Source of the DNA: Panulirus ornatus
Lineage: Eukaryota; Arthropoda; Malacostraca; Decapoda; Palinuridae
Direction: 5' to 3'
DNA: 64,000 nt
Assembly (NCBI RefSeq): GCF_036320965.1
Contig: NC_092225.1
Coordinates: forward strand, 74,285,935-74,349,934
Part shown: positions 32,801 through 57,542 of the stretch, one piece after another
How positions within the stretch are numbered: position 1 is the first letter of the stretch
Layout of the letters: every line of letters begins with the position of its first letter
Notes under the pieces: model-generated
Told to the model about the DNA's origin: nothing
Database searches by the model: none
What the model saw: the letters and a program-made list of their open reading frames with translations, nothing else
Made by a program: the position numbers and the translations under genes

Positions 32801-35800
32801 CCTTGGATGACGTCACTTCCCATGTACGCAAAGGAAAAACGATCCTTAACAAAATCATTTTCGTTTGTTCTCCACCGGCCACGCGGGCTGAACCCTGGGT
32901 ACATTTCAATATAATCCTGGAAAAAATCTATTTGCATTTCTAGTACATGGTACAGGAAAACCTGATGATCCATTATGATATTTGATATTCAACATAAATG
33001 ACCGTCGGGCAGGGTTCCCAGGAAGCAACACAACCCTTGAACAAGACAAAAAGGAATATACTGGTGGATATAAAACTTTGTATGCTAGTATTTAACTGGA
33101 GATGAATTCTGAACATTTTAGAGTAGTTATTCTTTTGGTTATTTGTTGCGACAACAGTAGGCAGCAGGTTAAATGTTATAAGATGCAAGGCCAGGCCGGC
33201 CTTGGCAGGTGTTTCATAAACGTGGCCAAATGTTGGGTTGTACTGGTGTATTACCTCCGTGGCCTGGTGGTGGTAGTGGGCGGTACTGGTGTATTACTCC
33301 CGTGGCCTGATGATGGCAGTGGGCCGTACTGGTATATAACTCCCGTGACCTGGTGGTTGTAGTGGGCTGTACTGGTGTATTACTCCCGTGACCTGGTGAT
33401 TGTACTGGGCTATATTAGTGCATTACTCCCGTGGCCTGGTGGTTGTAGTGGGCTGTACTGGTGTATTACTCCCGTGGCCTGGTGGTGGTAGTGGATTGTA
33501 CAGGTGTATTCAGTGTATTAAGGTGTGATTTGTGTTCCAGGCTGCGAGATGTGGCTACGTGATCATGGTCATGGCTATCTACTGGGTGACGGAGGCGCTG
33601 CCGCTGCCGGTCACCGCGCTCATCCCCGTCTTTGCCTTCCCACTGCTGGGCATCCTCTCCACGGGCGACGTGTGCATAGTGTACATGAAGGAGACCAACA
33701 TGATGTTCCTGGGGGGGCTCACCGTCGCCGTTGCTGTCGAGCACTGTAATCTACATAAACGTATCGCCCTCAAGGTCATCCTCTTAGTCGGTAAGTATGG
33801 ATGTGGGTCATCATGTGTGTGTGGGTCAGGGTGTGTGTGTGTGTGTGTGGGTCATTGTGTCTGTGGGTCAGGGTGTGTGTGTCTGTGGGTCAGGGTTCCA
33901 GTGTTTGCTAGATAGATCGAGAGAAAAAAAATAACTGGTCTTGCAACATTTACCGTATCATCTTTATAAAAAAGAGGATAAACAAAAAAATAACTGTCAG
34001 AATGCATGTTGATGGTAAGACATGACAAAAAGTATGCAATAAAGTCGACACCAGAAGTGGGCGAGGGTCTTTGAGGACGTGCCAGAACATATATATAAAA
34101 CGTTCACTCGTGATGAAATACAAAATGTTTTGTGTTCATGGTTGGAGAGGCATGGCACAAGTGGTTATATTACAGCTTTCATCACAGGGCTGGTGCTGAT
34201 TATCAGCAGTGATGATCAACACTAACTGGTGCTGATGATCAACACTTATGATCAACACTAACTGGTGCTGATGATCAACACTTATGATCAACACTAACCT
34301 AGTAGACATACCGGAATCTTGACACTCAATTCTTGATGATCTTTGAGTAGCTCTTGACACTATTACCTGTGATGACGCTATAGTTGAAAAGGAAACATGA
34401 AGTTGAGAAATTGAGTCACTTCTAGGTAATGTAGGAAACATGCCACTGTATGATAGACGAGGTTGTTGCAGAGACCAGATAATGAAACACACCCGAAACT
34501 CAGAGAGCAACAACCATGATTATGCAAATTTGTTTAGAAAAACTTAGATGTTTGATAGTCAAGCTAAATCGCATCTTAGAATAGGTAAAAAAAAAAAATG
34601 CTATTATTCATAGCTGTTAGTCAGTCATATTAACCAGTGAACTGGTCCATCATTGCAAAAAGCGACGACTTTGTTCAAGAACATGAAATCTTGAAGACGA
34701 GTTGAAATCTTTTTTATCCCTATTTTCACACGATGACAAATTCGATTGCCAGCGAAAGATATTATCTTATAATTGACGTGAGTGGACAAGGAAGTATCAG
34801 CATCAATTAGGATGAAAAGTAAAATATCCTGATAAGCGACGCAAGATTTTCAATATCCCAATGTGTGCTGTAAGACCTGCTGGTCCATTGCTGATGGTGT
34901 GTGTCTGCCTCCCTGATATTAGTGACATGTTCCGTGTCTTGCTTCTCTCGTGTGGACTCTGATACTGGTGTATGATTTTCTTGTCAAAATCCTGCAGCAT
35001 TATGATGTATAGATCAGAGGGGATGGCTGATCTGGCTGCCCCCTGCATCATCCTGAGTGTACCATCACCGTTTGGCCGGGTTCTTATATTTCTGCATGAC
35101 TGTAGTATGTCAGCAACAGTTGGGCCTACGTCTCTGGTCTTAGTTCTTATGTTCGGATGTATGAAGGAACCTGCTTTTAGTAGGGACAGCCGGAACCTTA
35201 GGGCGATTCCTCACTAGCAGTGCCAGACCTCGCCACCTCTCTCTCTCTCTCTCCGTTGTGAGGTAGTCACTGAGAAAAGTCCACATCAAGGCTGGGCCTT
35301 TAGGGAAAACGAAGAGGCAAGGGAAAATATTTACGAATTTTGGAGGATGTGAAAACTTGCCATAGTTAGGAAAGACATGAGAGGAAAGAGAGTTCCGAAG
35401 TTTCGAGGTGTAAGGAAAGAAACGGTTTAAAAACAATCCATCCTTGAGTTGCCAACTGTTACACAGTGTCTGTATGACTCGGCAGCTTGCAGAGTATCGA
35501 GTGGTCTAGCTAGCGGTGGGAGCACACGAGCAGCAGTTCTCTAGAGCAAAACCGAAGAAATACGTATAGAAGTAAATTAAACAGACATTGCTGCGTAGGG
35601 CAAGCGATCAAGTTTTGAAGTTAGCCTTGGGGAGTTTACAAGTCGGACCGCTTTCGACTTGACTCTAAGTAAGGGTACAAAGCTAGAACCACTCCAAATG
35701 TGAAAGCAGTACTCTGTATAAGGACGGATTAATCTTTTTTTTTTTTTATAAAGGGAGCAACTGCTTGGAAGAAAAAAAGAATCGACATCTAAACAGGATT

Positions 35801-38800
35801 CCCAGTATCTCTGTGGGAGACTTTGCTTTTTCAAAGATAGTCGATGTTACAGTAATACCAGGAATGTTCGTTGCGTCAAGAGGTGTTATTGCAGAACCGT
35901 TGAAGGAGAGAGGAAGGAAGCGAGGAAATTCCAATGGAGATAGAGGTGGAAACTGGGTCTTGGAGGCCTAACTCAGTGAGATATCCTATTCGTCTGAGTT
36001 TGAGGAAGTTGTCGAGATACAGATCGAATGAGGAGGAGCAGATTAAAAGGATGTGGAGGAATGGTGTTTATTCGTCAGCGTACGAGTACACTTTACTTAT
36101 GGAAAAAAGTAAATGGTTGATAGAAGGGAAGAAAAGTGTAGGAGACGGGACAGAACCTTGGACAACAACCACGGAGATAGATCGGCCTAAGAGGAAGCAA
36201 AGTGAGGGAGGGAAGCCAGAAGAGGGGGAGCTCAGAGATGGTACACCGATGCCACACTGTTTCAAAAGCTTCTGATATGTCAAGAGAAACTATATAGAAT
36301 TCCCCAAAATCTTGAAAGGATGATGACCAGATATTAAGAAGATAGGAAATATAGGAAATAAAATCGCCATTGGATATCGCCTTACGGAGTCCATATTTGT
36401 GATCATAGAGAAGACAGGTTCAAGATGTCGAAGGATGTGGGAGTTGAGAAAGGATTCCAAGACTAGAAGTGGCAGATGTCAAAGCAACAGGACGATAGTT
36501 AGAGGGTGTTCGAGCGGCTACCCTTCTTAAGGATGGGATCTACAAGCTCGTGCTTCCAAAAATAAAGAAAAGTTCTGGTTTTATTTGAACTGAAACTGAA
36601 CAGACGAGCAAGCACAGGTGTAAGCTCAGAGGCACACTCATCAGTACATAGGGATGGATACCTTGCTTGTGTTCAGAGAGAAGCGCTTTTCGGAGAGTTC
36701 TGACACCACAGCTACCTATCCACATCCTTCTCTTCCTGCTCAGGAATCCCTTGTATTCTTATAAGGCTCTAGCAGTCCTCGGAAGACTGGTAAGATCTAC
36801 TTAGCGGGTCCACATATCGATGTGTTGTGATGTGTGTTTGTCTATGAGGAGAGAGTGCTGAAAAGTTTAGTAAGTGCTCAGTGTCTTCTTTATGGTAGCT
36901 GTATCGTAGAAGGATCGTGGGATGTGTTGCAAAGATTACCATGTAAGTGATTAGGGATGTCCAGAGTGTGTGACTCATGTTTGTATGGAGACTGTTGGTT
37001 CTGACTGCCGTGAGTCTGCTAGGCTGATGTTTTAGATGGCGTTGATAGGTCGGCTGCATAGTGCTTGTCAGGTTATTTGTATTTTTTTTATTTGTATTTG
37101 TGTGTGTGTGTGTGTTGGGGGGGGGGGGGGTTGGAGACTTGTGAATATAGGTTTTCTCGTTACAGGGATTCTGTACTCCTTAATTTGTGGTCCTCTAGGT
37201 TATTCTTCTCGTGTTAAGGGATTTCTGTACTATCGTGAATGTGTTCTGTAGGTTATCTTGTTGCAGGGATTCTGTACTATCCTGAATTTGTGGTCCTTTA
37301 GATTATTCTCCTCCAGAATATAAATTGTTTTCTGGTGTTTACGGTTTTTGCTTAAGATAGTGTCACGGGGTGACCAGGTTTATGGTCACCTGTTGTATCA
37401 ATCAGCCAGCCATGGCGTGAAATATCTCGGCACATTTACTGAATACAAAGGAACGGAGGGAGAGACGCATCAGTGGTCTGTGAAAGATAAATTTACCCTA
37501 GACAAATACAAAAACAAAAGTAGATAATCACGACATCGATTTGAATTCTATACGTAACTGCGAAGACTCGAGAAAGGTACAGATGTGTCTTAAGTAACTG
37601 TATAGAAATTCCAGACATTAAAAGTATCATCGGCGATTTTTTTTTTCCCCCTTTGAATTCAAATCCTCACTCGCGAATTTGTCTCCATAACCACGTATGT
37701 GACCAGATTGATCTAGTCGTAGGTCCCTACGTCGATCAACATTGTTGGAACCTTCGATTATCAACACCAGATCAACTTGTTTCAAAAGTAAATCTTGATC
37801 TGGAGAGCAAAGAAAGGATTCTGATATTACTAAGTGCATTGTCTGGTGAGGTTCTATCTTGTAAATATTAGATATTTACTAGATACAAGTTTTATAGTTT
37901 CATATTTTTTGAAGTAGCATTTATTCTAATTATATTAATCTTTAGGGGAATATAATTATTTAGGTCTTAAAATATTATGGAAATCGTTTTCTACCATTGT
38001 TTTTCTGTAAAACATTATTCTATTGTACTGGTAAACTAAATACTTCAACAAACACTGCACAGTCATATTAAGTAAACAAAATAGATAAAGTTTGTATTGA
38101 AAAAATTTACACTTGAATCCTTTTTGTTTTATAATTTCTCTGCATTTGTTCATTTATATTCTTGGTTATTGTAAATAAACCCTGCTCGCTTGACTGCCCG
38201 AGTTGAACCTTTCCTTGTGGGTTTACATGTGGCACTCCTGGTTACCAGCGGGAGTAGTCCTGCGGTGTAGCTCATTCTAGACTCTACCAGTTTGGTTCGT
38301 ATGTACAAACAGTTTTGTAATATTTCAGGTCAGTCTCCCCGCATGTTGATGGTAGGCTTCATGATAACCACCATGTTCCTCTCGATGTGGATCTCCAACA
38401 CAGCCACCACAGCCATGATGGTGCCCATAGTAGACGCCATCCTCGCGGAGATGTACGAGGTGAGGACGACTGTTGCTCTAGCTTAGCCAGCCGAAGCTTT
38501 AGTGTATGTAGGTAGGTCGCCCCGCTCAGGGGTATGGCAGGGTAGTGTTTAGAGTTTAAGAAAACATTTGTTGGATATGTAGAGAAGAAAACATCCCCAG
38601 CACTGAACATGAACTTGCCAGGGTTAAGGGAATTCCTCTGAATGTTTTTGCTTATATTGTTTAACAACAGAGATCAATAAGGGATAATAAGAGTTGAAGA
38701 GTAGGGATCGATATGATTATAACTACTAGAATTTCATGACTGACTTGTCGATTAATACGCAGTGTTCTGCTCTGATATTTTAGGGTCGAGAACCGATACA

Positions 38801-41650
38801 TGTTCAGTATAAAATTGAACGGCAAACCGACACTCCTTCCTTAAACAATAAACCACAAAATCAATAGTGCAGCTCTGGCAAGGTACAACGAAAATTACCA
38901 CCACCCACCCGACATGCATACTTCTGACCCAAACCACCACCATCACTTTCCTCCTAAGAATACAGATATACTTGGTAAACGCTATGAAAAATCGGCCACA
39001 GACTAAGCGAGTTGAGAGGTTTGTAGAAAGAAAAGTCGCTGAACGAGCTCTTAACATATGGTGTTCACGTGTAATATATGGCAACATTCACCTTGGATAC
39101 GCGGAATCCACCACACCCAGGCCATCGAACTTGTGTGGTTAGCTAATCTGGTTGGCCACGACGAAACGATAGTTTTTCATCTGGGATCAGCGCGTGGTGC
39201 GCGAGATCCCCCGTTACCACACGCAAAAGAGCCCGGTAGCACTACATTAAATATAGTACCTCTATCGTGTACTGTCTGTATGTTGTAGATGTGAAGAACC
39301 TCCCTCGAGCGCGGGCTGAACTCTCTAAACCATTGGTTAATTGGCTTGGGTTCAAATTCCTTTCGCCCACAGATGATTGTTTCCACAAGCTGGAAGTACT
39401 TGTAAATATTTTCAAGTTCATTTCTTCGCTTATTATATCTAAAGTTCCTCTCTGCTGTTGGGGGGAATTCATGGGTTGTTTGTTGATGACAAATATTTGG
39501 TATCTTTGTATTGTTCATGAAAAACTCATTTTGATGTATAATGCGAGGAATTTCCTTTAGATTTTGTTTGGAACAATATGAATAGCAAGTATTGTATCTG
39601 TAAATCTCGCTAATGGAGCTAGTTGTAAGGGAGTGCTGGTTATCGTGTCAAACGAGGAGTGAATTTTTTTTTTTTTTTTTTTTTTTTCAAAGTTTAGCGA
39701 CGTTTGCCATCGGATCTACGAGTGGCTGCCAGAAGTTTGATACTCCCAGCTTCAGGATCGCCTTGAACCGTTTTTATTAAGTTAAATGTTTTTGTATGTA
39801 CTGGTAATATAAGTCTAAACAAGCAGTTTTGCCAAGGGTCTCTAGCTTAATTCTGGGGAACTATCCGTGTGTGTTTACAGAGGATCGGGGTCGCTGTGGT
39901 TACCTGGAGTCTGTATTAAGATAAGATTCGATTTCTTTGTCAAATTGCATAAATACCAAATGGTCATGTTAGAAGAAATGTGACGCGTGTATCTTTATAT
40001 AAGATTCTCGAGGAATTTTCCTTTTTCACGACGCATTTTTTAAATAAAGAAAAGCGGGAGGAAAAAAGTGATGTAAGGAGACCTAGGTAGAAAGTTTCCT
40101 GTCAACAGTGGGAAAATGACCCTTGACAACCTAGGAATCGTGGAAATGGTTCTTGAACCTCATGACTGGAACTCTTAATGACAGAGATTCAGGAAATGAA
40201 GCTGAGGAAATAGTGCCTGGCTCACTGCATTATTTCACCAATTTTCTGAGAAATGTCGAGATTGTTGAAATGTACGTTCATATAAACTATGGCTATATTA
40301 CTATAATAAAGCATCAGGTACGGATTTTTGAAAAGTGTGAGAATGTTAATGTTGGTAGTAAATAAATATGAAATGTTTGAAAATACTGAGGCAATGAAGG
40401 TAAAAGTGCATGTTTCCTAAATATATTGTAAAGTAATAATCGGTTATCGAGTAAGTAAATTTACGAGAAGTATTGAAAAGGAATATGGAGAAGTTGAAAA
40501 GTAAACAACTTCTAAGTAAGAAGACTTGTAACTAAACTGTAAAGAAATACGATCCCATTCGAAAGACCAAAGTCTTACCGAGCGAAACCTCTCCTAATAT
40601 AATTATATAATATAATATAGGTAACGAGAGCTTAACTCTTACAAATGGCCATAGATTTTCTAAATGCGACTCTCCACCTGGTGATGGAGCTGGCGGAGGA
40701 GCCAGCATTAATGTGACGTCATAAATCATGTACTCCTCGCATTTCCCTCCAGAAGAAGTAAGGCAAACTTATGTTTAAGACCGAATAAGGCAGCTACCAA
40801 GACCCTTTTTCTTGGTGACTTCAGTACGCACAGCCTTTATGATAGTGACTTAAGTGCGCACAACCTTTATGGTTGTGTGGGGAAGGAATAAGATGCAGTA
40901 ATGTTAGCGTATTAACCCCTTGTGATTGTAATATTCTCAGTGACGTGTTCGTATGGAAACTTTTCCTTTGTACACCGATATTTGCATCGTCGTGATTGTC
41001 TACATGAAAATCTAAACTTTCCCGGTCAGTCTGTACATGGCTCTGAGGTGAGGAGGATTGTGTGCGACTATCAGTGCAAAACAAGGGAAGAGTTTTACAT
41101 AAGCTACCATCCCTTATACTTGTATATACAGTGTCTCAACCTCTCTGTGCATGAACCTATACCCCAGCATACGCTCGGTACCCTATTGTTAACCGACCCA
41201 TAAGAGGAGGAACATCAGGGTTGTATGTGAGCTGGATACTTGACCAGAAGTGACTCCTGAGCCGTTTGATTGCTGGTTTGCTGTCCAACACACTTGAACT
41301 TTCGTAAGGCTTATCTACCCATGTCATCTTCAGGTTCCGTACAAACCTTCCCACCTGTATTCCAATGTGCAGAAAATTATTACTGAGAGATAAAGACTTC
41401 AAAACGTTTCTCCCCAGTGACTATATCCATCGGCCAGCCTCAGTGTTTAATGTGTCATTTTAACCCCACAGACCCAGACTGGAGAAGAGTCGCAGCCAGA
41501 GAACCTGCAGCAGGACATGCGTGTTTCTCCTGCAAACCAAAGTCAGATGGAGCTGGTACCGCCGCGTGATGAGGAGGCAGGCGCTGGGTAAGGCTAGGGT
41601 AGTTTTATATGAAATGGAGAATTTTGTGTGTGCATGTGTGTCTGTATATG

Positions 41651-44085: not shown

Positions 44086-47000
44086 TAAGTACTACATGAT
44101 TGTTTTCTTTGAGTTACACCACGAGTGAAAGGCACCATCATCGATATTGTTACTGTCAATATATGAGGAGTGATAAGTGTCCCAAGGAGTCCATCATTTT
44201 CTATCTGCTGATTGCAGTACAGCCCTAACGCTGCGAGTGCCTCATGAAAACGATCATTAGGCTTTATGATTATGTATGTTACATAATTTTGTGTATACTG
44301 TACTCATGATTACAAACGTAAGATACAGGCAGATGTAGAGGCTGTTTGAGTGAGGAGTGTGACCGTCTTGCAAGGAAATCTTTGTTACAAATATCATGGT
44401 GAAAGTATTATTAACCGATGATTCATTTCCCAGTATTTTATATTTTCCTTGTTTATCTTTTTTTTTTCCTGCACGTCCATAGGTAAGTGGGTGGTTAATA
44501 GTATAGACCAATCACGTACAGGCAGATCTAAATGGATACCCTCCTTTTGCTGACGTCTGTGTGAGGGATATCTAGTGGCAACATTGGCACAAGTCTACCA
44601 TACATTAAACGTGTATAAATCAATTCCTGTCTTTTACCAGTGTGGTTAAGAATGGCAGAATGGAGCTAGAGTTGGTGACGAAGAACCCTGAGAATCCCAA
44701 GCAGAAACCAGACGAGCACAAGGGTCTTACCTCTATCCCTCCGAACGAGAGTTGTCGGATCCTGAGGGACATGTGTTTCCTGGCTGTGGCTTACTCTGCC
44801 AACCTTGGTGGTACTGGCTCACTGACGGGCACCGGCCCCAACCTGGTGGTCAAGGCTGTTCTCGCCAGGTCACGAATTGTCTTTTTAGCATGGAAGTCTA
44901 GGCCTGATGACTCTCAACTTATCTGGACTGATAAACCTTCTTTCGGATTAAGCCTTCTAAATGTTTTTTTGCCTTTTTCTATAGCTTTGGGTCCAGGTGA
45001 ATGAAGCGATCACTTGCTTAGCATTACAATTAACCAGAAAGTGTAGAAGCTGATGGCTTCCTGGTGTATTGTGTGTCGACGATCGCACGCTCGGCTCGTG
45101 GGCCACCTTCTTCTGGCTAACTACGTGTTATCTTAAAAGCTTCATCACGTGAGCATTTTCAGGTGGAGGTTGCAAGTGTTATCGTTTTTTCCCATCTTCA
45201 GGTATTGGTTAAGCTTTATCTATCTATCTATGCTTATGCTTATGCTTAAGGGTGGGGGTACTGTGTGAGGCGTCCCCTCTATCGCATGCTGATGGTGACA
45301 AGATTGTGGCATATTGAGTGGTATGTGCGTCCCCTCCCCCAGGGAACAATCTGCTTGTCCCCAGGATGCCTGGAACGAAGACAGACTTGAAGCAGCACCG
45401 GAAACTACGGATCTGAGACTTGCGGAAGTTGGTAGGTTGCTACACACCATTGATGAGGAGGGAGAAGTCTGCCAGCCCCTCAAACTTCAACAGGAACCCC
45501 GGGTCGTCTTTTTCCTTGCCGTGGCATATGCTTCCAACATTGGTGGCACCGGCAGCATCACAGGAACCTCTGCCAATTTCATCGCGAGCAACCTCCTGGC
45601 CAGGTCTTATAACGTTGGTTCTGTACACAGAGTGCGCTCATATACTAATGATCCCTCCGCCACGGACGCCCGCGTCACCTTAACGCTTGTGTGAAAAAAA
45701 AAGAAAAATCTTAATTTGCTGTTTTGTTGTCCAGCCGCTGAAGATTAACAAAATTTAGGCAGTTAACCCAGACTTCAGGCACAAAAGTGTCTAGTTGAAA
45801 TTATAGGGAAAATTATATGAAGGACGAGTAGGTGTAGACTTGCTGATCTCGGTGCAAGGTCATACAGAGCTCGGTGCAGTGTCTTTAAAGGACGTAGCTT
45901 TTGCCATGTGAACTGCAATGATGAAAAAGTCATTGTGGAAGTGGTATCCAGAGGCTCCTGGTGTTGGTGCATGATGCTCCTGTCAGCAGACTGGATGGAC
46001 GAAAGGAAAATCAAGAGCTGAGCATCCCAACATGTTGCTCTGGCCGTGGAGGGAGCCTGAGTGGCGATGGCCCTCCCAGTCTGTGGACCTCGCACACCCG
46101 CTCGTCTCCCGTGTGTCACTCTGGATCCTCCCTGGACATGGCTAGCTTTGTCAGGGATATGAAGTGACCTTTATAATGATGCTGTAGTTTAGAGGTTTTG
46201 ATGTAGGAAAAGTATTAATGTAGATTGATTTTAGTGTACAACTAAATATCTTTATTGAATGGCTCTACGGGTACAACAGACAGGAGGACGACAATAGACG
46301 GGAGGAAGAGGACAACGGACAGGAGGAAGAGGACAGCGGACAGGAGGACGACATCAGACAGGAGGACGACAACAGACAGGAGGACGACAACAGAGAAAAC
46401 GACGAAATGCAGGAGGAGATACAGGAGGAAATACAGGAGGAAATCCAGGCAGAGGATTTGCATTCGCTGGAAGAGGGAGAGACGAAACGGTCCACCTTCC
46501 AGATAGCTGAGACGGAGGAGGACGCAGGGCCTAAAGGAGACGAGGAGAAGCGCAATTACCGCTTGATGATGATGTTCTCCATTGTGTATTCTTCTAACGT
46601 GGGAGGGACAGGCCAAATTACAGGCACAGCACCCAACCTTGTCCTGAAGGCAGTCCTCGAGGAGTGAGTAGATGACCTTGTGTTAACCTTTACTGCGTCC
46701 TCCTCGAGTAGTGATCCTTCCCCGCCGGATCGTACACGGAGACGATCATTGACATCTGGCGGGTGTTACGTCCTTTGGAGATGCGCCTGCGCACTCGCGT
46801 CAAGTAAATTTTCACTGCAAATCGTAAATGATCGACATTTACTTTGCTGGAAAGTGTTGAAAGTCTGTAAAGATTGCTGGAGTAAGTTGTTCCATGAATG
46901 TTTAAAGCCTAATGTAAGAAATAAACATGCGCATGACGGTGCTACTTAACACGTATATTTAAGACTTCTAAGCTTATCAATGTTTGCATGTTTCTAAAGC

Positions 47001-50000
47001 TAACAGAAAATCGACAGATGGTCGATCGCTTTTGCATGGCTCATTTTTGATGACTGTTTCACCGCTGCCCTAAGGACGTAACACAGGGTACACGAGCACT
47101 GCCTGATGCTGCACATAAGCAGGTGCAGCGGCAAAGGGTAGTCTGGGGACCACTGACCGAGGTGTGTGGGTATGTCATAACCAAGGAGTGTGAGTGGGTG
47201 TGTGTCATAACATAATCAAGGTGTGAGTGGGTGTGTCATAACATAATCAAGGTGTGAGTGGGTGTGTCATAACATAATCAAGGGGTGTGAGTGGGTGTGT
47301 CATAACATAATCAAGGGGTGTGAGTGGGTGTGTGTCATAACCAAGGTGTGTAGGTGGGTGGGTGTCATAACCAAGGGGTGTGAGTGGGTGTCATAACATA
47401 ACCAAGGGGTGTGTATGGGTTTTTCATAACATACAGTGTGGGTGGACGAAAGCTGACAGAAGGTTTCGGGAAAGTGGAAGATGGAGGACTGTATGGATGG
47501 AAGGAGAACGATGGTTTTGGGTGGATGGAAGGATTATTCTCAAGGGTATGGATGGATAACAGGAAGATGGAGGGGTATAGATGAATAAGGGTTCAAGGGG
47601 TATGGAAGGGGATGGAGGAATATGGATTGATGGAGATGGATAGTTATGGATGGGATGGTCGACGACGGAGGGTCATGGATGGATGAAGGGGTTTGGGCGG
47701 ATGGACAGACTAGAGACGTATAGGATGGAAGATGGTAAGTAATAGTTAGAGCATACATCCCTGCTCTTGATCCTTACTCTCGTTTGTTAGTTTTGTTGAA
47801 CGTTTCATTCATGTTAACCATTTGACACTTTTAAGACGAGTCGGTTTACTTTGTTGCAAGCCAGTGATATAATGGAGACATTGGATGTCAATATATTACG
47901 ATGTAAGCTGACTAGCTTCCTCCTGCAGCGCCTACACTGAGCCATCTGGCCTGAACTTCTTGACGTGGATGATGTTCAACGTGCCTGGGATGCTGATTTG
48001 TGTATTCCTGGCCTGGGCTTGGCTTCAAATTCTATTTTTGGGTCTCTTCCGGTAAGTACCAAGTGTTGGGTCTCTTCAGGTAAGTACCAAGTGTTGGGTC
48101 TCTTCAGGTAAGTACCAAGTGTTGGGTCTCTTCAAGCAAGTACAAATTATTATGTTTCGGATGCAGAAAGTACGCGTGTAATGTTCTAAAGGAGATCTGA
48201 GTGATTTTTGGTTTTCCTTTCTGAATACAGTATCGTGTGGGAGGTAGAAATGTCTAGGTTGACGTTTACTGCTTCGTTTTCCATTGACAGAAGATTGTTA
48301 TCATTGGCCTGTCCACCAATCTGTTCAACAGAGCTGGGTAAAATTTAAAGCGCTGGCAATTTTCTTCACAACCTCGCATCTTCCACAACCAAGTTACTCA
48401 CGGTTCTCGCTTTATCAACGCTGATGACTATGATCATGCTGCCTACATCCGTCATCTTACTACAGTTTGCGTCATGATTTGATCGGTTAAATACGCAAGC
48501 TAACATCCCTCGCCTTCCTCAGTTGTGCCTGGCATCATCTGTCGCAGTGACCTACAGCCACTGCACGTCGGATCTTGCTGTGCCTCTATAGTCTATTTTC
48601 ATTTTCCACTGGTGAACGTTCTGGTCGCTCCAGCGATGACTGTCTCCCAATTTTTCAATTAAGAAATGTTTCGATATTTTTGCACTCGATTTTTCTAATT
48701 CAAATGTGGGTTTGAGATTTTGTGCTTATCAGTCGGTGCATTTCATTTCCAAATCAAACATTTGTCATAAATTGACATTTCTATTGCCGACATTGTACTG
48801 GCAGTCATAACTACTGGCGACCTTGGATGAAACAAAAGCTAATGTTTACAAGAAAAAGAACGTTAGAATTAAATGTCTCCGCCGTTTAGAGACCCGACTT
48901 TGAATGTAGAAATTATATTGGAAGAAGGAAAGGCAATGAATTGAATTAGATAAGATCTGCAGCTTTGTGAATTAAGGTAATGGTATCTCGGGAGTCGGTC
49001 GTTGGGTGGCTGTACTGCGCGCGAACCTTATAATAGGATGTAGCAAGCAGGTGTGCGCTACGGGACCAGGGCATAACGACGCAAACAGCTCACATGAGCT
49101 GTGACCAAAATAATACCCGTAGAACATACAGGGCGAAGCAACATCCTAATAGAAGGAAAAGGGATGATTGGACGTAAATAACAGATTGAATAAGAGGGAA
49201 GGTATTGATAATCTGGCTAACAGAGAGTGGACGGAGCCATCTGGTGGGAAGGAAGCTCGTGTAGATACTAACACCGTGAAAAAGAACGATGACCTATAGA
49301 CACCACCTGGTAAACTTGGTGCAGAAATCGTCAGCGAGACCTTTTTAATGACTTTAAATTATCTCCGGAGAGGCAACTGTTTTGTGTCCACATCTTTGAA
49401 ATTATGGCCACACAATCCTGTGATACTTATTCTAATATGAAAACCTGACCTGTGATCATTAGAACCCTGATACCTTCTCCAGTTTGATAACTTGAGTGAT
49501 CACCACACAATCCTTATGTAATAAAGATATTCAGCTCTAAAAGTCATTCACCACCACGCAACCCGTACGTAACCCTCAACATAACTGTCATTGTCCACCA
49601 CCACACAATCGGTGTGACTGTGGCGTAGAATCTGTGATAACGGAAGGTAACTGGTTGAGGTTGACAGGCTTGCCTTATTACATGTAGGTCATTTAATGCA
49701 ACTGTAACACGGGGATATGAGATTTTTTCATCCCGAAGACTCTGTGCTTATACTGGACTTGTTCTGCAAGGCTGCAGTGTAATTGCCCTTGAAATAGATG
49801 TGCTATATTTGACTCGGTCATAGTGTAAAAATGAATTCTTTGCAGTTACTGCAAGGCGATTAAACTCGTTTAAACAAAAAAGACGTAAGATTAGTTCATT
49901 AGTCTTATAAAACCTAAACATAGTTAGAGGAATACGTAGAATATCAAACAGCAACGGACAATCTGTCCTCTCGAGGCTTTTTGTGATAGACGTCAAACTT

Positions 50001-53000
50001 GCAAAAATGAGGGGAAAGTAAGAAGGCATATAGATGATTCGAAGAGGAAAAGTCTTGTATTTAAACTGTTGATTCAACACGTAATGATTTCCAGTACAGA
50101 CTTGTAATGTTTACACATGTGAAAAGGCCAAGCCAGAGTTAACCACTGGAAGAGGTCGATTTTCTTGTAGCTTCGTTGGTGTTAGGGAACCTCCTACGTT
50201 GGTATTAGCCTTGTTACCCATTAATCCTGTGTTTGGGATTCTCATGTGAAGCTGTTTGACTCTGCACTCGTTTGGTAAGTGTTCATTATACTTTTTTACA
50301 TTAGTGTGTGGTAACCTGCAGATATCGTGTTTTACATGAATGTGGTAACCTGATGAACCTTTTATTACATGAGTTTGTGGTAACCTGCAGGTACCATGTC
50401 ATGTAGTCCACTGTTGGCTGTGATTTGCAACGTAATTCTCTCTCCTTTTGTTGTCACAGATTACAACATGTGTGTGATAAGCCTTTTTTCATATCAGAAT
50501 GACAGCTGAAGTACATTTTAGAATGAAAGTTGAAGTGTCTTTTCAAAATGACACCTTAAGTATATTTTCAGAATGACAGTCGAAGTATCTTCACTGCATG
50601 ACTGGTGGACTATATCAAATGAATTGGTTGCACTAATATAGGTGTCACACTCTCCCGGTAGGAAGAAGAGGATGATCGCGGAAGTGTCACCCGAGCGAAA
50701 GAGAGCAGTCAAGCAACTGGTGGAAGCCAAGTACAAGGAGTTGGGTAACATCACTTTCCAGGAGATGGAGGTACTCCTCCTATTCTTTGCGCTTGTGCTC
50801 CTCTGGCTGTTCAGGGCACCAGAGTTCATCCCTGGCTGGGCCTCATGGTTTGAGGAAACCTACCATGTGTAAGTAGCTAAACATCTTCGGTTCATACAAA
50901 GCCATCTATACACAAGTTCCCATTTTTTCCTTCCATCTCTTTTAACATAATTCTTACACAAATCCTCTCTCCATATTGATATGTTTTCTGTATCTTAAAG
51001 TGAGCCAGGCTAAAATCTGACCCATGTACTGACTCATGGTAGTACATCTAATCCATGTACTTCCTCACCCTTGATAGTACATATTACCCATGTACCTCCT
51101 TACTCATGATGGTTTATATTACCCATATACTTACTAACTCATGATAGTACATGTTATCCATGTACTTCTTTACTCATAGTACATATTACCAATGTACTAA
51201 TAATAGAACATGTTATCCATGTACTTCTTTACTCATAGTACATATTACCCATGTACTATCTTACTCGTGTTGTACATATTACCCATATACTTACTCATGA
51301 TGGTGCATATTAGCCATGTACTTCCTTACGCATGGTCATGCATATCACCTTTGTACTTCCCATCAAGGTAACACCTTGCCTGTGTGTTTTTGCTGATGAC
51401 ACCTGTACCCCCACGCTTACTGCTGACACTTGTACCCCCACGCTTACTGCTGACACCTGCACCCCCACGCTTACTGCTGACACCTGCACCCCCACGCTTA
51501 CTGCTGACACCTGCACCCCCACGCTTACTGCTGACACCTGCACCCCCACGCTTACTGCTGACACCTGCACCCCCACGCTTACTGCTGACACCTGCACCCC
51601 CACGCTTACTGCTGACACCTGCACCCCCACGCTTACTGCTGACACCTGCACCCCCACGCTTACTGCTGACACTTGTACCCCCACGCTTACTGCTGACACT
51701 TGTACCCCCACGCTTACTGCTGACACTTGTACCCCCACGCTTACTGCTGACACTTGTACCCCCACGCTTACTGCTGACACTTGTACCCCCACGCTTACTG
51801 CTGACACTTGCACCCCCACGCTTACTGCTGACACTTGCACCCCCACGCTTACTGCTGACACTTGCACCCCCACGCTTACTGCTGACACTTGCACCCCCAC
51901 GCTTACTGCTGACACTTGCACCCCCACGCTTACTGCTGACACTTGCACCCCCACGCTTACTGCTGACACTTGCACCCCCACGCTTACTGCTGACACTTGC
52001 ACCCCCACGCTTACTGCTGACACTTGCACCCCCACGCTTACTGCTGACACTTGCACCCCCACGCTTACTGCTGACACTTGCACCCCCACGCTTACTGCTG
52101 ACACTTGCACCCCCACGCTTACTGCTGACACTTGCACCCCCACGCTTACTGCTGACACTTGCACCCCCACGCTTACTGCTGACACTTGCACCCCCACGCT
52201 TACTGCTGACACTTGCACCCCCACGCTTACTGCTGACACTTGCACCCCCACGCTTACTGCTGACACTTGCACCCCCACGCTTACTGCTGACACTTGCACC
52301 CCCACGCTTACTGCTGACACTTGCACCCCCACGCTTACTGCTGACACTTGCACCCCCACGCTTACTGCTGACACTTGCACCCCCACGCTTACTGCTGACA
52401 CTTGCACCCCCACGCTTACTGCTGACACTTGCACCCCCACGCTTACTGCTGACACTTGCACCCCCACGCTTACTGCTGACACTTGCACCCCCACGCTTAC
52501 TGCTGACACTTGCACCCCCACGCTTACTGCTGACACTTGCACCCCCACGCTTACTGCTGACACTTGCACCCCCACGCTTACTGCTGACACTTGCACCCCC
52601 ACGCTTACTGCTGACACTTGCACCCCCACGCTTACTGCTGACACTTGCACCCCCACGCTTACTGCTGACACTTGCACCCCCACGCTTACTGCTGACACTT
52701 GCACCCCCACGCTTACTGCTGACACTTGCACCCCCACGCTTACTGCTGACACTTGCACCCCCACGCTTACTGCTGACACTTGCACCCCCACGCTTACTGC
52801 TGACACTTGCACCCCCACGCTTACTGCTGACACTTGCACCCCCACGCTTACTGCTGACACTTGCACCCCCACGCTTACTGCTGACACTTGCACCCCCACG
52901 CTTACTGCTGACACTTGCACCCCCACGCTTACTGCTGACACTTGCACCCCCACGCTTACTGCTGACACTTGCACCCCCACGCTTACTGCTGACACTTGCA

Positions 53001-54467
53001 CCCCCACGCTTACTGCTGACACTTGCACCCCCACGCTTACTGCTGACACTTGCACCCCCACGCTTACTGCTGACACTTGCACCCCCACGCTTACTGCTGA
53101 CACTTGCACCCCCACGCTTACTGCTGACACTTGCACCCCCACGCTTACTGCTGACACTTGCACCCCCACGCTTACTGCTGACACTTGCACCCCCACGCTT
53201 ACTGCTGACACTTGCACCCCCACGCTTACTGCTGACACTTGCACCCCCACGCTTACTGCTGACACTTGCACCCCCACGCTTACTGCTGACACTTGCACCC
53301 CCACGCTTACTGCTGACACTTGCACCCCCACGCTTACTGCTGACACTTGCACCCCCACGCTTACTGCTGACACTTGCACCCCCACGCTTACTGCTGACAC
53401 TTGCACCCCCACGCTTACTGCTGACACTTGCACCCCCACGCTTACTGCTGACACTTGCACCCCCACGCTTACTGCTGACACTTGCACCCCCACGCTTACT
53501 GCTGACACTTGCACCCCCACGCTTACTGCTGACACTTGCACCCCCACGCTTACTGCTGACACTTGCACCCCCACGCTTACTGCTGACACTTGCACCCCCA
53601 CGCTTACTGCTGACACCTGCACCCCCACGCTTTTAAGCTAATGCCTCTCGCAAATAGACTTTGACTTTCCCAGTTGGATAACTTCTGTGATAACATCTCT
53701 ACTCATACGTTAGTTAACACACACTCCATATACTCTTATGTTAACACCTGTCACCATGAACTCAAACAGTTCTCCCTGATCCTCTCGCTTCGCACACCTA
53801 CACAACATATGCCACTCTGTCATCGAACTGATTCGACAAACCTTCAAAATACTCGCACCATCACCTCATCACTACCTGTTATTACTCAACTCTCCTGCCC
53901 CCGTCACCGATGTTCCCGTTTGTTCTCTTGTCTTACACACGTTGTTTACCTCCTTCCAAAACGGTCTTTTTATTTTCCCTAAAGTTTGATACTCACCACA
54001 GTTCTCATTTGCCCTCTTTTTCAACCCTTGCACCTACTCTCATGACCTCCTGCCATTTTCTTTTGTCTCATTTGCACTTTCCTTGTGAATATCATCCAAA
54101 AGCCCCCTCTTTTCTTTCACTAACTACTACTTCATCCCACTACTCGCTACCTTTTCTAATCTGCCTACCTCTCAACTTTCTCATGCCACATGTATCTTTT
54201 GCACATGGTATCACTGCTTCTCTAAATACATCTCACCCTCTCCCCTCACTTCATTTGCTTTAATCTTTTGCCATTCGACATTCGATCTCTCCTGGTACTT
54301 CCTCACACATGTCCTTTTCAAGCTTGCTCACTCTCTCCACTCTTCTCCCCAACATTCTCTACTTTTTTGAAAACCTCTGCAAACCGTTACCTCCGCCTCC
54401 ACAAGATGTGATCAGACATACCTCCAGCTCCCCCTCTCACCACATTAACATCCAATATATATGTATG

Positions 54468-54825: not shown

Positions 54826-56782
54826 CACATCCAAGCCCAACAAAATTATCCAGGGTTTATCCCAGACGCTTCACATGCCCTGATTCAATCCATTGACAGC
54901 ACGTCGACCCCGGTATACCACATCGTTCTAATTCGCTCTTATTACTTGCACACCTTTCACCCTCCTGTATGTTCAGGCTCCGATTGCTCAAAATTTTTGT
55001 CACTCCCTCCTTCCACCTCCAATTCGGTTTTCCACTTCTCGTTCCCTCCACCTCTGACCCATGTATCCTCTTTGTCAATCTTTCCTCATTCTCTCAATGT
55101 GACCAAACCATTTCAATACACCCTCTTCTGCTCTCTCAACCACACTCTTTTTATTACCACACCTCTCTCTTACCCTTTCATTACTTACTCAATCAAACCA
55201 CCTCACACCACATATTGTACTCAAACATCTCATTTCCAACACATCCACCCTCCTCCGCACAACTCTATCTATAGCCCACGCCTCGCAACCATATAACATT
55301 GTTGGAACCACCGTTCCTTCAAAAATTTTTGCTCTCCGAGATAACGCACTCTCCTTCCACACGTTCTTCAACGCCTCCAGAACCTTCGACCCCTCCCCCA
55401 CCCTGTGACTCGCTTACGCTTCCAGGGTTCCATCCGTTTCTAAATCCACTCCCAGATATCTAAAACACTTCACTTCCTCAAGTTTTTCTCCATTCAAACT
55501 TACCTCCCAATTGACTTGTCCCTCATCCCTACTGAACCTGATAGCCTCGCTCTTTTTCACATTTACTCTCAGCTTTCTTCTTTCACACACTTTACCAAAC
55601 TCAGTCACCAACTTTTGCAGTTTCTCACCCGAATCGGCCACCACCGCTGTATCATCAGCGAACAACTGACTCGCTTCCCAAGCCCTCTCATCCTCAACAG
55701 ACTGCATGCTTGCCCCTCTCTCCAAAACTCTTGCATTCACCTCTAACAACCCAATCCATAACCAAATTAAACCATGAAGGCATCATGCACCCCAGCCGCA
55801 AACCGACATTTACTAGGAACCAATCCCTTTCCTCTCTTCCTACTCGTACACGAGTCTTACATCCTTGATAAAAACTTCACTGCTTCTTGCAACTTACCTC
55901 CCACACCATATGCTCTTAATACCTTCCACAAAGCCTCTCTATCAACTCTATCATTCCTTCTTAAGATTCATAAATGCTGCGTACAAATACGTTTCTTTTT
56001 TTAAGTATTTCTCGCATACATTCTTCAAAGCAAACATCTGATCCACACATCCTCTACCACTTCTGAAACCACACTACTCTTCCCCAGTCTGATGCTCTGT
56101 ACATGCCTTTACCCCCTCAATTAATGCCCTCCCATATAATTTCCCAAGAATACTCAAACTTGTACCTCCGTGATTTGAACAGTGGCACTATGCATGCATT
56201 CCGCCAATCCTCAGGCACTTCACAGTGAACCATACATACATTGAATATCCTTACCAACCAGTCAACACAGTCACCTCCTTTTTTAAAAAATTCCACTGCA
56301 ATACCATCCAAACCCGCCGCCTCGCCGGCTAGCATCTTCCGCAAGGCTTTCACTACCTCTTCTCCGTTTACTAAACCATTCTCCCTGACCCTCTCGCTTC
56401 GCGCACCACCTCGACCTAAACACACTATCTCTACCATTCTATCATCAAACACATTCAACAAACCTTCAAGATACTCTATCTCTTTCTTACTTCACTACTA
56501 CTTGTTATTACCTCCCCATTAACCCCCTTTCACCGATGTTCCCATTTGTTTTCTTTGTCTTACGGACTTTATTTACCAGCTTCCAAAACATCTTTTTATT
56601 CTCCCTAGAATTTAATGATACTCTCACCCCAACTCTCATTTGCCCTCTTTTCCACCTCCTGCACCTTTCTCTTGATCTGCCTGTTTCTTTTATACATGTT
56701 CTAGTCATTAGCACTACTTCCCTGCAAATATCATCCAAACTCCTCTCCTCTCTTTCACTAATAATCTTACTTCATCCCACTA

Positions 56783-56824
<42 letters not shown>

Positions 56825-57542
56825 GTATTATTTGATACAAATATCTAATTGGTCGGTCTTTGCTGCTCCTCTATATGTCTTAAGCCAATTCAGCAGATCC
56901 TTATCCGCTATCTTGTACACTATGGTAACGACCAAGCCTTTCTGTGAAACTGTCATTACTTGTATCGGTATATTTCAAAATGCATAATGTCCTTGGATAT
57001 GTCATTACCAAGAATCTACGCTCTTCCACTTTTTGTGTTACTGGCCAAAGACTCGTCCATACAGACACTGACTCTACCTCCACTTGTTCTTTAATGCACC
57101 GAGCAGTCCCCCTTCCATCCACTGTCTGACTCTCTTCCTCACCCAGGATCCCATATGTTGCCACATCCACTGCCAGGTACCTAGATCGCTTCATTTAACT
57201 CGGATCTCCCCCTCGTTTAACCTTAAAGTTGGACAATCTTGTCCCATTCCCCTTCTGCATCATTACCTTAGTTTTGTTAACATTAACTCGAACTTCATAC
57301 AGACAACATTATACTGGTAATGACATTGTTACAGACAATATTATACTAGTAATGACATTGTTACAGACAACATTATACTAGTAATGACATTGTTACAGAC
57401 ACATTATACTAGTAATGACATTGTTACAGAGAAGTGGACGATGCCACCCCAGCAATGCTGATTGTATTCCTGCTCTTCCTCCTGCCGGCTAAGCTCGACT
57501 TCTGGTGCTTCTGGAGTCCATCTAGTAAGTCGCTTGTGTGTG

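Follow-up and report, generated by a model that had tools for sequence, protein, structure and literature searches.

Three frame-compatible versions of exon 5 in a lobster SLC13 gene probably encode alternative substrate-binding loops

The window analysed here comprises 64,000 nt of Panulirus ornatus contig NC_092225.1 and carries on its + strand the middle part of one SLC13 gene (Table 1). Joining the exons through the first of three exon 5 copies (5a) yields a reading frame that is 100% identical to residues 59-536 of P0001, the P. ornatus Na(+)/citrate cotransporter isoform X6, which carries version 5a; this holds for an exon 9 start at 59640, and a second possible start at 59610 is in frame. 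Residues 1-58 of P0001 (exon 1) have no match anywhere in the window, so that exon 1 lies outside it, presumably upstream; residues 537-625, from the last exons, fall past the window end. The joined 5a, 5b and 5c isoforms match PF00939 with 229.6, 225.1 and 241.5 bits, respectively (cut-off 27, all E-values at or below 2e-66), and the top PDB match of the joined protein is NaCT (SLC13A5; E 3e-103). SNT-type motifs are encoded by exon 3 (SNTATTAMM) and exon 9 (SNTATASI), and GGTGxxTGT by 5a, 5b and 5c. Exon 5 apart, the parts of P0001 that map to the window each have one convincing place, as an earlier sequence-only reading of this DNA had described, and no second SLC13 gene was found within the window.

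Table 1 Exons of the SLC13 gene in the window and codons aligned with NaCT position 228
Feature	Position	Strand	Remarks
Exon 2 (constant)	33541..33790	+	P0001 from residue 59
Exon 3 (constant), HPin and first SNT motif	38329..38459	+	
Exon 4 (constant), start of HPin-TM5 cytoplasmic loop, phase 2 end	41472..41587	+	
Exon 5a, 228 nt, loop and TM5a-L5-TM5b, L5 TGTGPN	44641..44868	+	donor CAG|GTCACG (weak)
NaCT-228 codon of 5a: GGC (Gly)	44834-44836	+	
Exon 5b, 261 nt, acidic loop and TM5, L5 TGTSAN	45343..45603	+	donor CAG|GTCTTA (weak)
NaCT-228 codon of 5b: TCT (Ser)	45569-45571	+	
Exon 5c, 384 nt, acidic loop and TM5, L5 TGTAPN	46280..46663	+	donor GGA|GTGAGT
NaCT-228 codon of 5c: GCA (Ala)	46629-46631	+	
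Exon 6 (constant), phase 2 entry	47929..48051	+	
Exon 7 (constant)	50662..50868	+	
Exon 8 (constant)	57430..57524	+	
Exon 9 (constant), HPout and second SNT motif	59640..59923	+	P0001 start = 59640

Each of the exons 5a, 5b and 5c has AG/GT borders, is entered and left in phase 2, has a length that is a multiple of three and joins exon 4 to exon 6 in frame. For 5c, two plausible in-phase acceptors leave a 45-nt ambiguity of the start, the longer alternative spanning 46235-46663 (429 nt). Joining 5a, 5b or 5c, the last with each of its two acceptors, gives four frames that stay open throughout (488-555 aa). A TM5 profile derived from 115 protein blocks of other species was searched against the 2055 stop-to-stop ORFs of the window, giving exactly three strong matches with E-values of 5e-23 (5a), 2e-15 (5b) and 2e-17 (5c). 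The next match has an E-value of 1.1, the best of 20 shuffled windows scored 10.9 bits compared to 53-77 bits for the real matches, and the profile found no fourth exon 5 among these ORFs. The three open, non-identical phase 2/2 exons that had been noticed between exons 4 and 6 are thus present and, by the TM5 profile, homologous.

The 5a part of P0001 is 55-56% identical to 5b and 5c. Within a shared 27-codon core, the differences by codon position amount to 11, 5 and 18 (5a/5b), 8, 3 and 19 (5a/5c) and 13, 5 and 17 (5b/5c), a third-position bias that points to protein-level constraint over much of the separate history of the copies. Changes private to 5b (7, 3 and 4 by codon position) lack a concentration at third positions, and 5b could be relaxed or decaying. 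All three exons keep GGTGxxTGT and Asn230 (NaCT numbering). Mutually exclusive exons have been sought by conserved splice-site type, reading frame, homology and similar length, with a length difference of 20 aa allowed and loop differences tolerated in a control search (PMC3228551). The lobster copies share splice-site type and frame (AG...GT, phase 2) and are homologous by both profile E-values and identity; exons 5a (76 codons) and 5b (87 codons) fall within 20 aa of each other, and 5c (128 or 143 codons) falls outside, exceeding 5a by 52-67 codons, with the surplus located in the loop. The loop preceding TM5, as delimited by our own cut points, comprises 45 aa with a net charge of +1 in 5a, 56 aa with -8 in 5b and 97-112 aa with -30 in 5c. 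The acidic loop of 5c (46273-46449) consists partly of tandem repeats with periods of 18/39 and 12 bp, which are multiples of three, so that these repeats can grow without breaking the frame.

We approached the question whether the exon 5 copies serve as ALTERNATIVES by comparing the predicted protein isoforms of other species outside exon 5. The homologues examined are the best 120 of 7484 matches (predicted proteins, 90% clusters), of which P0001-P0041 denote the best 41. Setting Panulirus aside, the best 41 include 14 named decapod species, and in 10 of these, isoforms of the same gene differ at exon 5; they are 99-100% identical downstream, and their exon-5 blocks are only about 50-75% alike. 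Version pairs were found in Homarus (P0005/P0023), Procambarus (P0002/P0022), Cherax (P0009/P0033), Scylla (P0006/P0017), Palaemon (P0011/P0024), Macrobrachium nipponense (P0020/P0031), Penaeus indicus (P0021/P0037) and P. vannamei (P0016/P0036). Penaeus japonicus has four versions (P0014/P0026/P0030/P0032), all located on one 110,979-b contig, and in M. rosenbergii P0028 carries one version and P0010 the same version plus one of 5a type. The downstream parts match at 316/317 residues in Procambarus and are identical over all of 319-321 residues in the remaining pairs (314 for P0016/P0036). P0016, which comes from short 'lgn' contigs, was assigned to P. vannamei by identity (314/314 downstream to P0036), and the P. 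vannamei gene thus shows both versions. Only one version was seen among the best 41 for Eriocheir, Chionoecetes, Petrolisthes and Halocaridina. The swapped block begins past the exon 4 text and stops short of [YF]S[EQ]P; the residue preceding [YF]SEP follows the exon version and is mostly S or D, the residues that the split codons AG|C and GA|C at the phase-2 junction would give.

An all-against-all comparison of the homologues returned the same decapod pairs and added Daphnia pulex, D. pulicaria, D. carinata and D. magna, each with a GSGTN-bearing and a GSSPQ-bearing version (X4 and X6 in D. pulex); downstream identity (99-100%) and likeness of the exon-5 blocks (about 50-75%) are as in the decapods. 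In the ostracod Cyprideis torosa, the single gene model P0089 contains three successive TM5 blocks and reads as if a gene finder had joined three alternatives; these blocks carry SPS, TNP and TSP at NaCT positions 227-229, and the pocket may be still more variable among the alternatives of Cyprideis. The cassette of alternative exon 5 versions that had been proposed for this SLC13 gene is therefore recovered in same-gene isoforms of 10 of the 14 decapods. The same three exons are not seen in other decapods; their predicted proteins show 2-4 versions per species, with 5a as the version in common. Separately from exon 5, the proteins P0014/P0015, P0019/P0020 and P0024/P0025 also differ N-terminally, before AARCGYV/EARCGYV, which suggests alternative first exons.

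We further examined the relationships of the versions on a block tree of 48 columns, in which numerous forks lack resolution and bootstrap values had not stabilized, so that the support values are rough. Within the TSPN class, Penaeus japonicus X4 groups with carideans (support 100/96). Penaeus belongs to the Dendrobranchiata, and carideans and Panulirus belong to the Pleocyemata; at least one non-5a version therefore probably predates the split of the suborders. The astacidean alternatives form one group (97/98). By path length, 5c is nearest to Penaeus X5 and a P. vannamei version, a placement that carries no support, and 5b sits on a branch of length 1.36 with no firm place in the tree; a search of 175 candidates with the 5b-specific region found no relative at E-values of 10 or below. 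The Daphnia versions group together and with a second D. pulex gene (90/75), and the Daphnia duplication may therefore be a separate event.

Counting TM5 blocks among the best 120 homologues gave one block in 113 proteins, two in five, three in one and none in one (P0041). Two blocks occur in the annotated gene models P0003 (Homarus X2), P0010 (M. rosenbergii X9) and P0071 (Daphnia pulex X2) as well as in P0060 and P0095; P0060 (Conger) was not counted as a cassette, and our guess is that it represents a fused model. Five proteins among P0001-P0041 come from 'lgn' contigs only (P0004, P0016, P0027, P0029 and P0039), two of them of 5a type and three of TSPN type, and each of the five contains one TM5 block. 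Their longest contigs measure 2.1-3.4 kb, too short for introns like those of the lobster gene, and the five are therefore taken as spliced RNA. One version per transcript thus appears to be usual and strict exclusion less certain, the counts being those of gene models rather than of RNA. Among the 90%-cluster representatives, no P. ornatus protein carries 5b or 5c; the 5c-specific region matched 6 of 31 candidates with the P. ornatus 5a isoform at the top, which implies that these representatives include no P. ornatus 5c isoform.

Which mechanism would keep a second copy out of the transcript can be narrowed down from the exons and introns themselves. Frame-based decay is ruled out as the enforcer because no stop arises when two or three copies are joined, in any of four combinations, in agreement with the initial statement that two copies together would preserve the frame and that exclusion must be enforced differently. 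U12-type donors are likewise ruled out, the borders being GT-AG and the cassette donors unlike the U12 consensus. The inner introns measure 474 nt (5a-5b) and 631/676 nt (5b-5c). These lengths rule out steric hindrance, for which a limit of <50 bp has been used (PMC5740500). As frame, spacing and donor type impose nothing, exclusion would need splicing regulation. The donors of 5a, 5b and 5c match 6, 5 and 5 of 9 consensus bases, compared to 6-8 for the seven other donors; such weak cassette donors would fit a regulated choice and are no proof of it. In a test for a docking site/selector RNA duplex, performed once per direction, the worst-of-three energies were reached by 1/12 and 2/12 sets of crude block shuffles, and we make no claim for competing RNA structure as the enforcing mechanism.

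Cryo-EM structures of human NaS1 and NaDC1 place Na1 on HPin residues and on the carbonyl of Gly258 (NaS1) or Gly239 (NaDC1) in L5; the substrate is contacted by the next residue, Thr259 (NaS1) or Thr240 (NaDC1), and in NaS1 also by Ser260 (PMC10980263). The counterparts of Ser260 are Ala241 in NaDC1, Pro201 in VcINDY and a glycine of NaCT printed as Gly288, which is Gly228 by count on the NaCT alignment, and the authors of the structures suggest that Ser260 could preclude binding of citrate and succinate (PMC10980263). In Drosophila INDY, residues T245, A246 and T247 of the TM5a-b loop lie around citrate (PMC11782487), and the human NaCT variants G219R and T227M, the sites of which both fall within the exon-5 block, abolish citrate uptake (PMC6063891). 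In NaCT numbering, G219, G226, T227 and N230 are present in 5a, 5b and 5c. At position 228, 5a has the Gly of NaCT, 5b the Ser of NaS1 and 5c the Ala of NaDC1/NaDC3; at position 229, 5a and 5c have Pro and 5b has Ala. Human transporters keep this variation at 228 (Gly in NaCT, Ala in NaDC1/NaDC3, Ser in NaS1) in separate genes, whereas the lobster variants are exons of one gene on a constant, carboxylate-type remainder.

To compare versions within and between species, we used 36 hand-chosen blocks, which yield 20 pairs of versions of one gene and cover 11 species in these pairs, leaving out M. nipponense, D. pulicaria and D. carinata as near copies of species included, as well as paralogues; for P. 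indicus and P. vannamei a single version was entered, so that neither contributed a pair, and the pairs of both would have shown no difference at 228. None of the 20 same-gene pairs differs at position 219, 220, 222, 225 or 226, and differences were counted at 227 in 4 pairs, at 228 in 14, at 229 in 8, at 223 in 13 and at 224 in 16; 228 is therefore not uniquely variable, and we single it out for its known place at the substrate. Across species within one version class, 228 differs in 17 of 108 comparisons. The versions seen in Cherax, P. indicus, P. vannamei, Homarus and Procambarus have Gly228 in common, with different residues at 227 and 229 in Homarus and Procambarus. The constant part of P0001 carries the carboxylate-type Thr in VATPPN where NaS1 has Asn533. 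A full sulfate-type pocket is accordingly not expected from 5b, a switch to sulfate is doubtful, and the idea of 5b as a true sulfate transporter is weakened.

The sequence-only reading had let the exon choice swap part of the ion site as well as the cytoplasmic loop, with different coupling or regulation as the outcome. The ion-site part fails because the Na1-ligating Gly of L5 is identical in 5a, 5b and 5c; with it, altered coupling gives way to substrate recognition as the better prediction, and the loop does change, in both length and charge. Since the substrate-side residue after the conserved Thr varies while the Na1 Gly is constant, we predict that exchanging the exons affects recognition of the substrate more strongly than coupling to sodium.

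Taken together, one SLC13 gene contains three frame-compatible versions of exon 5, and we consider it likely that splicing places one in each mRNA, which would give different versions of the predicted substrate-binding loop. By homology, exon 5 would encode the end of the HPin-TM5 loop followed by TM5a-L5-TM5b, with the constant Gly226 of L5 providing the Na1 carbonyl and residues around 227-229 the substrate contacts. Splicing that picks 5a, 5b or 5c would produce transporters identical apart from exon 5, and the choice is predicted to alter substrate affinity or selectivity together with the charge of the loop (+1, -8 or -30) and regulation through it, with sodium coupling kept and the second copy excluded through splicing regulation. 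Exon choice may instead act mainly on a regulatory cytoplasmic loop (its length, charge and partners), on trafficking or on stability, the TM5 differences being tolerated drift of little consequence for substrate choice, an account that we regard as less probable though still a real contender. The loops differ far more than TM5 does (45-112 aa, and the charges given above), the homologous NaDC1 loop 165-212 is poorly resolved and described as flexible (PMC10980263), and five species have versions alike at 228. Against this stand the L5 residues found at the substrate in solved structures, and position 228, which differs in 14/20 same-gene pairs compared to 17/108 same-class pairs across species; duplication of TM5 would moreover be superfluous if the loop alone mattered, unless exon borders dictate it.

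That P. ornatus uses only 5a, perhaps with 5c, and that 5b is a fading copy being lost, seems rather unlikely to us. Its donor CAG|GTCTTA matches 5/9 consensus bases, its branch of 1.36, the exon without a relative and the private changes of 7/3/4 fit such a loss, but the 5c donor likewise matches 5/9, the 5b acceptor is pyrimidine-rich (12/16), 87 codons are free of stops, GGTGxxTGT and the loop Asn are intact, and the third-position bias holds against both other copies. Versions that are alternative and not exclusive, with regular two-version transcripts giving a duplicated TM5 or a decoy transcript, are in our view improbable: P0003, P0010 and P0071 do contain two blocks and Cyprideis P0089 three, and joining copies creates no stop, but 113/120 homologues have one block, 0/5 'lgn'-only proteins among P0001-P0041 have two, and a second TM5 would be expected to disturb the fold. 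The preferred account, one exon 5 version per mRNA with a changed substrate-binding loop, can be extended to crustaceans at large, where exon 5 would form an interchangeable pocket module that, through Gly, Ala or Ser at the L5 selectivity residue (Pro, Asn or Ser in an ostracod), turns one gene into citrate-, dicarboxylate- and sulfate-leaning transporters, a diversity spread over separate SLC13 genes in vertebrates, and that decapods, Daphnia and ostracods keep or re-evolve; we put this forward tentatively, as a doubtful generalization.

The closest known system by analogy is the exon 4 cassette of NKCC2 (SLC12A1) in vertebrate kidney, where, as here, three homologous exons (4B/4A/4F) lie in tandem and NKCC2 uses one per transcript. 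NKCC2 exon 4 encodes a transmembrane helix and the following cytoplasmic loop, and mutagenesis has shown it to specify affinity (PMC7818487). NKCC2 belongs to an unrelated family, the lobster piece comprises the L5 substrate-side residues and the loop preceding the helix, and the number of crustacean versions seen varies (2-4); an effect on affinity in the crustacean transporters is a prediction from residues. Swaps of tandem duplicated exons are often ancient and have arisen repeatedly and independently in ion transporters (PMC9741552, PMC5740500), and those of SLC25A3, SLC39A14 and CACNA1C, like lobster exon 5, involve homologous neighbouring exons in one frame. The main text of PMC5740500 contains no mention of 'SLC13'.

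A printed description of an SLC13 exon-5 cassette was not found among the titles and abstract starts of the open-access papers listed. Drosophila INDY, like the lobster protein an arthropod member of SLC13, transports citrate, and it is not known to have an exon-5 cassette. It is sodium-independent and described as electroneutral (PMC11782487). The nearest trace concerns Daphnia pulex indy, for which one exon is reported in multiple splicing events (PMC7318467); INDY expression is also reported for Daphnia magna, in a text that does not use the word 'isoform' (PMC8016896). The isoforms themselves are already contained in public annotation. The SLC13 family (INDY/NaCT) is relevant to lifespan, to metabolism and to epilepsy in humans, and the residues that decide between citrate, dicarboxylate and sulfate are still argued from structures. 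A loop swapped on a constant background would supply matched natural isoforms for a direct test of these selectivity residues. If isoform use is confirmed, an SLC13 anion transporter would join the genes known to evolve tandem alternative exons, and one gene would give lobsters, shrimps and water fleas several ways of dealing with citrate or related anions.

Outside exon 5, the gene contains further repeats. A 28-bp unit is repeated 3.8 times (48038-48143, 96% match) across the boundary of exon 6 with the next intron, including the splice donor, producing three GTAAGTACC donors in succession followed by a degenerate fourth; use of a later donor would include an in-frame stop just past the first. 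The intron between exons 7 and 8 holds a 27-bp minisatellite of 83 copies (51393-53632, 99% match), which, owing to its unit, leaves about 750-775 codons without a stop in four frames, and, on the - strand, a reverse transcriptase fragment (55414-55782; RVT_1, E 1e-7) that represents the remnant of a retroelement.
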